DNA from: Sphingomonas sp. BT-65
Lineage (GTDB): Bacteria > Pseudomonadota > Alphaproteobacteria > Sphingomonadales > Sphingomonadaceae
Assembly (NCBI RefSeq): GCF_026107375.2
Contig: NZ_JAPCIA010000001.1
Coordinates: forward strand, 682,001-746,000
Direction: 5' to 3'
Length of the DNA stretch: 64,000 nt
Each line of letters opens with the position of its first letter. Position 1 is the stretch's first letter. The position numbers were made by a program, and so were the translations under genes. The notes beneath the pieces were generated by a model that did not search any database, was not told the origin of the DNA, and saw only the letters and a program-made list of their open reading frames with translations. This document shows positions 60,938 through 64,000 of this stretch, in pieces.

Positions 60938-61013
<76 letters not shown>

Positions 61014-61157: not shown

Positions 61158-61613
61158 CTAAGCCGGATCGGTCGAGACGGCTCGCAACGCCTTCAACGCG
61201 TCGACAAATGGCTGGACGAGCTGCCGGACGGATTGCCGAATCCCGTCGATCAATGCGCGCATCGCATCCGTTTGCGCGTCCTCACCATGCACCATGATGA
61301 ATTTGGAATAGGCCCTTGCCAGCATGAAGAAGCCGTCAAGGGGCGTGAGTTCACGTTCGTTGCCCGGAGCATCGTGCTTGAGCCAGTCGCGAACGTGATT
61401 CAGGTGCTGCGCGATGACCTGCTTTTCCGGGATTTGCAGCGCTTCGGCGCCAGCGACCTTGAGCCACCCGAACAATGTCCCGCCCTCGGGTTCCGGCAGC
61501 GAGCTCTCGGCCGCGCCGGCCAGGGTCACCGACGATGCGTAGAATCCCTCCTGCCAAAGCCTGATTGCCTGATCGATCTGCTCCGCGGCGGCTGCCTTCT
61601 TCGTCATTGGCAT
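61158..61613 (-). CDS. Uncharacterised HEPN-like protein
   Basis: The ATG at 61613 has GGAAG eight bases upstream, giving 151 residues; ATG 61628 is an alternative. The helical protein contains AIRLWQEGFYASSVTLAGAAE and then HLNHVRDWLKHD. R-DWLK-H (Arg75, His80) fits the RX4-6H motif of HEPN ribonucleases and minimal nucleotidyltransferase partners. The family call is recognition-based and could be wrong; many helical proteins have such spacing. It is the last of three genes that run toward tRNA-Lys on the minus strand. Confidence 0.65.
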   Translation of the reverse strand: MPMTKKAAAAEQIDQAIRLWQEGFYASSVTLAGAAESSLPEPEGGTLFGWLKVAGAEALQIPEKQVIAQHLNHVRDWLKHDAPGNERELTPLDGFFMLARAYSKFIMVHGEDAQTDAMRALIDGIRQSVRQLVQPFVDALKALRAVSTDPA

Positions 61614-61722
61614 GGTGTAAACTTCCATGGAACGCGCTTGGATCGAACCGTGACGCAGGCAGGCAGTGCCCGCAACCGGACGAGCATGCGGCAATGTCTT
61701 TCGGTTCTCTCCAAGACGTTTT

Positions 61723-62577
61723 TCAAGGCACTCGCTGATCGAAGCGCCGAAGCAGCAGCCGGGCGGTCACCAGATTGATCTGGAGACGGAAGGTCGCATC
61801 CTCCTCCTCGGAGAGACCGGGATGTCCTCCATGGGGATGCATCCGGCTCATCAAGCCCTGAATATATTGCGGCTTCTGATTGTTGACGTTCCATTCGTTG
61901 TAGTCGGACAGCAAGAACGGCGGATTGAGCTGGCCGAGAAAATCGCGTTTCAACTTGCTGTCCTGTGGCCCGCTGTAGCCAAGCCTCTCCGCAATTTCGT
62001 TGAGGTAGGACTCATAGAAGTTCCGCAATGCGCCATTGGCGGACGCCCATTCTCCCCGGCCGAAGGCGGACAGGGCTTGCTTCAGATGCCCTTTGGTCAC
62101 GGTCAGGCAGTACCGATCGATCAGCAGCATGACTTCGCTTTCCGCTTCCCGAAAATCGAGTTCGGGAATGTCCGCGGGCAACATGCGGACCAGGTTCAAC
62201 GAGGTGCTGGTTCTCCCGCTCTGCCAGGAGAAATCGGACTCGCCATCGGTTTGGTCTTCGACCAGCTCAAATCCATCGAAGCGCAATCCGGCGACCAATC
62301 TGGTCCATTCGGGCTTGGCTTTCGTCTTGGGAGGCGCCTGGATGGCGGTCTCGATCAAGGCTCTCCCCAGCGGGACAGGCCCATGTTCTGTGAACGCCTC
62401 GATGTCTTCCTCGATGGCGATCTTCGCCAGGCTCGCCACGCGTCCAGCCTTACTCGAGGCGTCGCATCGCCCATCGATCCCCCATTGAACTTCAAGAACG
62501 TCCATGTCGCTGTGCGACTTGAAGTCGGCCACGACTTCGGCGGCCGCCACGAGGGTCAGGCGATTGAATTTGGTCAT
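61723..62577 (-). CDS. Uncharacterised protein with C-terminal HEPN-like motif
   Basis: The chosen ATG gives 284 residues (MTKFNRLTLVAAAEVVADFK...); an upstream ATG at 62649 gives 308. No clear Shine-Dalgarno sequence decides. The N-terminal part is mixed alpha/beta (MDVLEVQWGIDGRCDASSKA). The C-terminal half is helical: RGEWASANGALRNFYESYLN, then a segment SRMHPHGGHPG in which R-MHPHGG-H (Arg245, His252) is an RX6H motif, and FRLQINLVTARLLLRRFDQR. This layout recalls the C-terminal HEPN domain of AbiJ-type abortive-infection proteins, an inference only. Confidence 0.65.
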   Translation of the reverse strand: MTKFNRLTLVAAAEVVADFKSHSDMDVLEVQWGIDGRCDASSKAGRVASLAKIAIEEDIEAFTEHGPVPLGRALIETAIQAPPKTKAKPEWTRLVAGLRFDGFELVEDQTDGESDFSWQSGRTSTSLNLVRMLPADIPELDFREAESEVMLLIDRYCLTVTKGHLKQALSAFGRGEWASANGALRNFYESYLNEIAERLGYSGPQDSKLKRDFLGQLNPPFLLSDYNEWNVNNQKPQYIQGLMSRMHPHGGHPGLSEEEDATFRLQINLVTARLLLRRFDQRVP

Positions 62578-62666
62578 GACACCCGTCTGCCCGAACGGGA
62601 CGCGGAGAGGGAGGAAAAATCCACGGGCCGATCGGCGGCGATCCGTCATGGGCTGACGTTGCCGTG

Positions 62667-63536
62667 CTAAGCCCGGTCGGTCTCCGGCGCCGGCGCCGCA
62701 TTGTCATGGATGGCGACCGCGAGGCGCTGCAGGCTCGGCGAGCCGCCGAGCGCCTGGCCGATGGACAGCAACTCGAAATAGAGCCCTTCCGTCTTGTCGC
62801 AGGCGATCCGCTGCTCGAGCTCGGCCACCAGTTCGAACAGCGCGCGCTTCTCGGCATTGGCATTGCCCGCCGCGCGGTCGAGATGGACGCCGCCGGCATA
62901 GTTGGCGAAATAGTCTATGATCTGCTTGCGCGAGATCGTCTGGCCGCGCCGGACCGCCGCGGGCGTATCGAGATAGGCGCTCAAGCGCCATTCGCGTTCG
63001 ACGAGGGGTTTGAGGGCATTGTCCTCGCTCTCGCCGCGCGTGTCGCGCAGGATCGCGCCGGTGCTCACGGCGAATCCTTCCTCGGCATCGGCCGGCACGC
63101 CGGTCTTGGGATGGTCCACGCGCCAGACGCCCACCATGCTCATCTGCGCATGATCGACCGTCGCGCCGCCCGCGACCAGCGAAGCCGCGTGCCGCAATTC
63201 CATATGCTCATGGGCAGCGATTGCGGCCAGGTCCGGTGCGACGACCGTAGGGACGCCCTCCAAGCCGTGATGGCGCCAGGCGCGCTGGATCATGTTCTCG
63301 TTCAGCAACCGCCGCAGGGTCGCGCTGCCTCGGCGAAGCTCGCCGTCCGATGGCGGCTTGGGTGCGTGCAGCCAAGTGTCGCGGAGCCAATCGAGATCCT
63401 CGGCGATAGGTAAATAGGGCGACGCGGGAACCCGCTCGGCGCCGGAGCGCAGGACGTTGCGGAAGCGCATGGGCTTGGGTTCCGGCGCAGCCGCTTCATG
63501 GGGCGGCGCAATGCCTGCGGCTTCTTCCTCATCCAT
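62667..63536 (-). CDS. Uncharacterised protein, cassette partner
   Basis: The 289-residue protein is preceded by GGAAGGAAGCG. I do not recognise a named family. It has a proline-rich, acidic N-terminus (MDEEEAAGIAPPHEAAAPEP), a middle part with WLHAPKPPSDGELRRGSATL and WRLSAYLDTPAAVRRGQTIS, and a core ISRKQIIDYFANYAGGVHLD followed by LYFELLSIGQALGGSPSLQR. I recall that last pair as a conserved block in unnamed proteins. It lies 89 bases upstream of the second cassette gene and is probably in one transcript with it. Confidence 0.65.
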   Translation of the reverse strand: MDEEEAAGIAPPHEAAAPEPKPMRFRNVLRSGAERVPASPYLPIAEDLDWLRDTWLHAPKPPSDGELRRGSATLRRLLNENMIQRAWRHHGLEGVPTVVAPDLAAIAAHEHMELRHAASLVAGGATVDHAQMSMVGVWRVDHPKTGVPADAEEGFAVSTGAILRDTRGESEDNALKPLVEREWRLSAYLDTPAAVRRGQTISRKQIIDYFANYAGGVHLDRAAGNANAEKRALFELVAELEQRIACDKTEGLYFELLSIGQALGGSPSLQRLAVAIHDNAAPAPETDRA

Positions 63537-64000
63537 ATCGCTTCCTTCCGATCCCGGTTCGGCGGGTTTAGCTCAGAAGCATTGTGAAAGGACAATTTGG
63601 CGCTTCCCTTCGGGACCGACGCTCTATCTCCGCTCCGCTCCGACCGAACCCCTGGCGGGTTTCGGCCTGCCGGTGACGATCACCGTAGCGCGGCGGCGAT
63701 GGTCTCGCCGCTGAATGCACGCGGGGTCCAGAGGAGCGCACACTGACGGCCTTCTTGCGAAGGCCGCAGGGGTCGCGCGTTTTCGTGGCCGCGTGGCACT
63801 CTTGCTCTGGCCGGAGGGCGCGGCGGCGGCTGGCCCCCAGGTCCGCGCGCACGCCGCCGCGCCGGCCGTCCGCCGCAAGGGTGCATCTGTTTGCGGGCGC
63901 CGCCAGGGCGGCGCGGTGCTTGGGGCTCCGCCCCCGGCGCACTTCGGAGCGTCTTCCGCCCAGCTTCCTCCGCGCGTGCCGCGCTCCGTGCAGCCGGTTC
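63537..64000. other. Gene-poor GC-rich end of the window
   Basis: No frame here has codon use, a ribosome site or a motif that supports a gene. A perfect 8-base-pair hairpin CGGCCTTC-TTGC-GAAGGCCG lies at 63747-63766. The first 70 bases upstream of the cassette gene are likely its promoter region. The rest resembles non-coding stretches that I associate with integrative elements, but I cannot show it. Confidence 0.4.

Follow-up and report, generated by a model that had tools for sequence, protein, structure and literature searches.

The window analyzed here, a 64,000-nucleotide stretch of Sphingomonas sp. BT-65 (contig NZ_JAPCIA010000001.1, positions 682,001 to 746,000), holds near its end three minus-strand genes, named p1, p2 and p3, next to a tRNA-Lys gene (anticodon CTT; 60938-61013, plus strand). 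p1 (61158-61613) encodes a predicted all-helical, HEPN-like protein of 151 amino acids (aa), p2 (61723-62577, with an alternative upstream ATG at 62649) a protein of 284 aa, and p3 (62667-63536) a conserved protein of 289 aa. Because they are located after the tRNA gene on the opposite strand, all three converge on it. The tRNA gene is the insertion site of an integrative and conjugative element (ICE), and the 45-bp attachment core (60969-61013, plus strand) covers its 3' portion, which runs from anticodon loop to CCA. Since these last 45 bp recur at two farther places on the same contig (contig positions ~786985, 2 mismatches, and ~878952, 0 mismatches), the element border is real. The initial annotation had placed three minus-strand genes beside tRNA-Lys at such a border, and ARAGORN, the open reading frames (ORFs) and the core repeats confirmed this. 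Attachment (att) repeats, an integrase and conjugation genes are all present, and the locus is the end, on the tRNA-Lys side, of an ICE with defence-type cargo.

The same 45-bp core was found at the matching element end in Sphingobium sp. OAS761 (locus L012), whose DNA likeness to the window stops where the core begins. The p3-p2-p1 order is kept there, with identities of 89% for p2, 94% for p1 and 89% for p3, and both genomes have p1 immediately behind p2 on one strand. The OAS761 p1 begins about 16 bases past the p2 stop codon; the window spacer is about 95 bases longer, and this extra stretch (61627-61722) has no counterpart in the OAS761 element. Six same-genus relatives (G001, G010, G011, G025, G028 and G033) carry two equally oriented core copies within a single contig, at a distance of about 8-120 kb; one of the two could be a second tRNA gene. 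The tRNA-Lys core is probably a recurrent insertion site.

HEPN-like features of p1 and p2

The p2 protein consists of an N-terminal mixed domain (residues ~1-131) and a C-terminal HEPN-like helical domain, the portion aligning with HEPN structures being residues 140-284 (61726-62160, minus strand). HEPN chains head the structure-match lists for the predicted models of both p1 and p2. The motifs pointed out in the initial annotation are present as described, RDWLKH (R-x4-H; codons 61374-61391, minus strand) in p1 and RMHPHGGH (R-x6-H, R245 and H252; codons 61822-61845, minus strand) in p2. The presence of R-x4-6-H by itself was rejected as evidence for HEPN, since 34 of the 55 ATG ORFs of at least 100 aa in the window, a largely non-overlapping control set, carry it (12 of 26 among those of 120-320 aa); conservation in homologues is what counts. 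In p2 the arginine is kept in 136 of 137 rows (it is lost in L008) and the histidine in all 137, in a table that joins the 120 listed out of 768 proteins, 15 of 43 genome loci and loci L007 and L008 and that contains the window's own p2 and near-duplicates. Among 12 aligned p1 sequences the arginine is kept in 11 (lysine in L070) and the histidine in all. A HPHGGHPGLSEEED stretch is also near-invariant in the p2 family. Judged by predicted fold and by conservation of R and H, p1 and p2 both look HEPN-like, which agrees with the first part of the earlier proposal of a HEPN-like module.

None of p1, p2 and p3 had a confident match in Pfam, PADLOC, NCBIfam or PHROGs. The weak Pfam matches of p2 were E1_4HB (E 0.18) and DUF5863 (E 0.23), and the best matches of the p1 and p2 profiles to PDB sequences were no better than E 0.2. 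Against a viral fold library p2 found nothing at E 0.001 or better, and it had no match in the phage collection. Comparison of p1 with p2 and with Abi_C by hhalign was not significant. Genome scans matched p2 in 3 of 150 genomes (its own and two weak matches) and p1 in 2 of 337 (its own and one distant match). Remote relatives of p1 occur apart from p2: one is plasmid-borne and about 4 kb from a phosphorothioation-associated gene, another is amid apparent housekeeping genes. A Xanthomonas plasmid (L086) carries a remote p2 relative (about 32%) two genes away from an annotated HEPN/Toprim-associated protein.

Association of p2 with restriction-modification operons

The p2 alignment was used to retrieve 43 genome loci with a p2 relative. 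In 29 of these, an MmeI-like methyltransferase gene, p2, a DEAD/ResIII helicase (translocase) gene and a T5orf172/GIY-YIG gene follow one another on one strand, the identities having been assigned by running Pfam and PADLOC on the proteins of locus L014. The commonest place of the p2 family in the retrieved loci is the second gene of a four-gene restriction-modification (R-M) operon; R-M systems of this kind are known, and p2 relatives are often a fourth gene in them that has been overlooked. These usual partners of p2 were not visible from the window alone. The contig of L020 ends before the GIY-YIG gene, and the methyltransferase match is partial in L022, L025 and L037. The methyltransferase match ends at most about 40 bases from p2 in 27 of the 29. 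An extra gene lies between the two in L021 and L026.

Best-piece identity to the L014 copies was 49-93% for p2, 60-85% for the helicase, 50-74% for the methyltransferase and 51-71% for the GIY-YIG protein. S-adenosylmethionine (SAM) and NPPY motifs are retained in the methyltransferases and Walker A and DEFHH motifs in the helicases, and the GIY-YIG proteins preserve their core; no conserved E-x-K was seen in the MmeI-like N-terminus, as judged by reading the alignment. The hosts belong to Pseudomonadota, Acidobacteriota, Verrucomicrobiota and Chlorobiota, several as metagenome-assembled genomes. In 10 of the 29 operons (L020, L021, L031, L032, L035, L038, L039, L048, L049 and L050) p2 and the helicase are separated by 0.99-2.9 kb, which suggests that this gap is a cargo slot for accessory effectors. 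A Sulfitobacter plasmid has the same gene set (methyltransferase 72%, helicase 80%, GIY-YIG 63%); an ATP-binding protein fills the slot, and the helicase is annotated as a pseudomurein-binding repeat protein.

Detached copies of p2

In 14 of the 43 loci p2 stands without methyltransferase, helicase and GIY-YIG partners alongside, and none of the three is beside p2 at the window locus. One of these detached copies (L053) has a similar operon about 4.4 kb off on the other strand, and a detached copy also occurs in Planctomycetota. Homologues of the L014 helicase and GIY-YIG proteins were absent from the genomes of the window, L012, L018, L041 and L042, and the L014 methyltransferase had no homologue in those of the window, L018 and L042; the L012 and L041 genomes gave distant methyltransferase matches (about 30%) in longer frames. 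The L014 genome, source of the queries and positive control, matched every time.

Neighbours of detached p2 include a reverse transcriptase gene (L041) and a PD-T7-5-like gene (L042). Plasmid pAoF64/95 (L085) has the order 209-aa protein, p2, PD-T7-5-like gene, Lit-family gene; upstream of these lies an annotated 7-cyano-7-deazaguanine synthase gene. On this plasmid and in four rhizobial loci (L042, L044, L046 and L051) a 207-209 aa protein with a VRCALLHEA stretch immediately precedes p2. This protein had no Pfam or PADLOC match, and from its sequence we read it as a putative further small HEPN-like partner. A p2 tree of 13 detached and 29 operon rows, which omits L044 and L046 for a stop in the plain frame, requires three changes of the detached label; its deep branches are without resolution. 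The window p2 clusters with L012, P0010 and P0011 (support 97/92).

By tblastn, L012 is the sole one of the 43 p2 loci with a p1 homologue, the other 42 having none, and p3 was found next to p2 solely in the window and L012. The idea of p1, p2 and p3 as a conserved trio was therefore rejected, and with it the second part of the earlier proposal, in which the three genes formed one module. That proposal had also cast p3 as a sensor or regulator, and no result points to it as a sensor. The 76 p3 homologues, some with an N-terminal extension, have a conserved FFANYAGGVHLD stretch in common, and weak matches were obtained to NCBIfam PriL (0.036, far below the cut-off) and to PHROG 7805 (0.0044, unknown function). 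Scans for p3 gave no match in plasmids or viral contigs, and one among 289 genomes of the class, its own. A metagenomic p2 (P0010) and p3 (P0130) are each reported on a 2591-bp contig from one source and are probably neighbours as well. Longer p3 forms (450-485 aa) occur, for example in Mesorhizobium. One p3 homologue (P0173) is named Holliday junction resolvase in the database, a name to which NCBIfam gives no support.

Comparison with known systems

The p2 operons resemble OspHL35III, which the available text of PMC4752239 presents as the prototype of several hundred REBASE members with an MmeI-like methyltransferase lacking the endonuclease motif, a translocase and a GIY-YIG protein. They likewise resemble its B. 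subtilis counterpart DnmA-YeeB-YeeC, for which no phage protection was found according to the accessible part of PMC9973331. The likeness lies in the MmeI-like methyltransferase, the separate translocase and the GIY-YIG nuclease and, for OspHL35III, also in the missing E-x-K endonuclease motif. The accessible portions of these descriptions list three proteins; in the operons found here p2 stands as an additional gene between the first and the second. The same portion of PMC9973331 cites raised phage sensitivity of Vibrio crassostreae mutants and mentions uncharacterised families close to dnmA as a potential further member. In the literature searched, mostly journals outside subscription, no paper was found that presents p2 as a fourth gene of such systems. 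In contrast to OspHL35III-type R-M, homologues of the three L014 partner proteins were all absent from the window genome.

As far as the available text of PMC3710099 goes, PrrC, RloC and Ymh share with p2 a HEPN-like domain, R-x4-6-H and a coding place inside an R-M operon, and a multi-pronged defence by HEPN domains and R-M systems is proposed there. On the other hand, Ymh and Abi_C have no sequence match to p2, which was rejected as a member of Abi_C (PF14355) or Ymh (PF09509, TIGR02391), no model matching at E 1 or better. PrrC and RloC carry an ABC ATPase, for which the 284-aa p2 is too short. With hhalign p2 reached non-significant values, Prob 3.4 against Abi_C (7 members, left from 9 fetched loci after one that had a stop and another under the cut-off were dropped) and 1.5 against Ymh (2 members of 3), all thin alignments. 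Against non-membership, one p2 homologue (P0099) bears the UniRef name 'TIGR02391 family protein'. By eye, Abi_C has the same layout as p2, and some members (e.g. L057 and L058) have an R-x6-H stretch, LRNLYGxGHG. AbiV (Lactococcus) was rejected as an identity for p1: in the accessible text of PMC3710099 AbiV typically lacks the H of R-x4-6-H and has an alternative histidine instead, the motif H is retained in p1, and there was no sequence-family match.

Proposed function of p2

The explanation that we consider best, with confidence evenly balanced, is that the ICE-borne p2 is a detached member of a strongly conserved family encoded mostly in R-M operons and would be a HEPN ribonuclease (RNase) with p1 as its partner. 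The N-terminal domain of p2 may sense a cue, such as a phage product, a partner protein or DNA that is unmodified or engaged by restriction, and the HEPN half would then cut RNA as a dimer. RNA cleavage would lead to growth arrest backing DNA restriction, as proposed for PrrC-type HEPN nucleases beside R-M systems. Split from the R-M genes in the ICE, p2 would act with p1, either a partner RNase or a modulator of p2, and might protect against phage. A wider proposal, which we put forward tentatively, is that p2 represents a HEPN RNase family not described before and acts as fourth subunit in widespread MmeI-like/helicase/GIY-YIG systems, turning failed restriction into RNA-cleaving growth arrest; on more than one occasion it would have left these systems and joined various small HEPN-like partners by recombination, giving independent defence modules on ICEs and plasmids.

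Several features of the operons also fit a reading that we find possible yet doubtful, in which p2 serves the MmeI/helicase/GIY-YIG complex as a structural or adaptor subunit, its HEPN-like fold having no RNase activity, and the detached copies are remnants or serve another system. Conservation of p2 is about as high as that of the operon enzymes, its HPHGGHPGLSEEED stretch is near-invariant, and the stops in the plain frame of 2 of the 14 detached loci fit decay. However, detached p2 makes up 14 of 43 loci and the label needs three tree changes, and five genomes with detached p2 are without helicase and GIY-YIG homologues, two of them having only the ~30% methyltransferase match.

The position of p1, just downstream of p2 in both genomes and so close to it in OAS761, would suit a toxin-antitoxin pair in which one HEPN-like protein restrains the other, chiefly retaining the ICE in its host, and the protein preceding p2 in the rhizobial loci and the plasmid could be read likewise. 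We nevertheless think this unlikely, given that 42 of 43 loci have no p1 homologue and that neither p3 nor the ParB-like neighbour had a nucleotidyltransferase (MNT) match in Pfam. That p1, p2 and p3 serve ICE housekeeping (ParB-linked regulation or entry exclusion), their HEPN likeness being a common helical-bundle resemblance, is improbable when 29 of 43 p2 loci are R-M operons, 42 are without p3, and HEPN chains lead the lists for two proteins with no detectable sequence similarity to each other.

The B. subtilis version gave no protection against phage in the accessible part of PMC9973331, and a fourth gene with an RNase-like fold would be a concrete reason to examine the four-gene versions. 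If p2 acts as proposed, it would be a further case of DNA restriction backed by RNA cleavage. Should p2 also function with p1 alone, this would illustrate how one part of a multi-gene system can turn into a mobile module.

Other features of the element

Beyond p3 begins a long plus-strand ParB-like ORF of the ICE backbone (63715-64000, start approximate, extending beyond the window end; 3216-5609 in L004), whose ParB matches are weak and under the Pfam cut-offs. It is followed, past the window, by genes for DUF736, a regulator with a RovC-type DNA-binding domain, a RepA-type initiator, ParA and a DUF3363 protein, and by type IV secretion genes (TraG-like, TrbE/VirB4-like, TrbL, VirB8 and CagX). 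Phage-integrase-family genes flank the first core repeat on either side. The simplest reading of this sequence would be an ICE of about 44 kb, followed in tandem by another element of some 92 kb.

The tRNA island setting with defence genes that had been suspected turned out to be a mobile element with further defence-type cargo. The third tRNA-core copy is what suggests the second, ~92-kb tandem element (contig positions ~787000-878967), which has its own integrase; TrbI/TrbG-like ORFs were judged by eye to lie in it. At the opposite end of the ICE (contig positions ~776966-786839; L005 14467-19432, L055 422-5340) a second defence-type cluster encodes a cytosine methyltransferase, a GHKL-ATPase protein whose N-terminal part has PADLOC REase_II matches, several unknown proteins, a PDC-M33A-like protein and a Vsr endonuclease, followed by the integrase.
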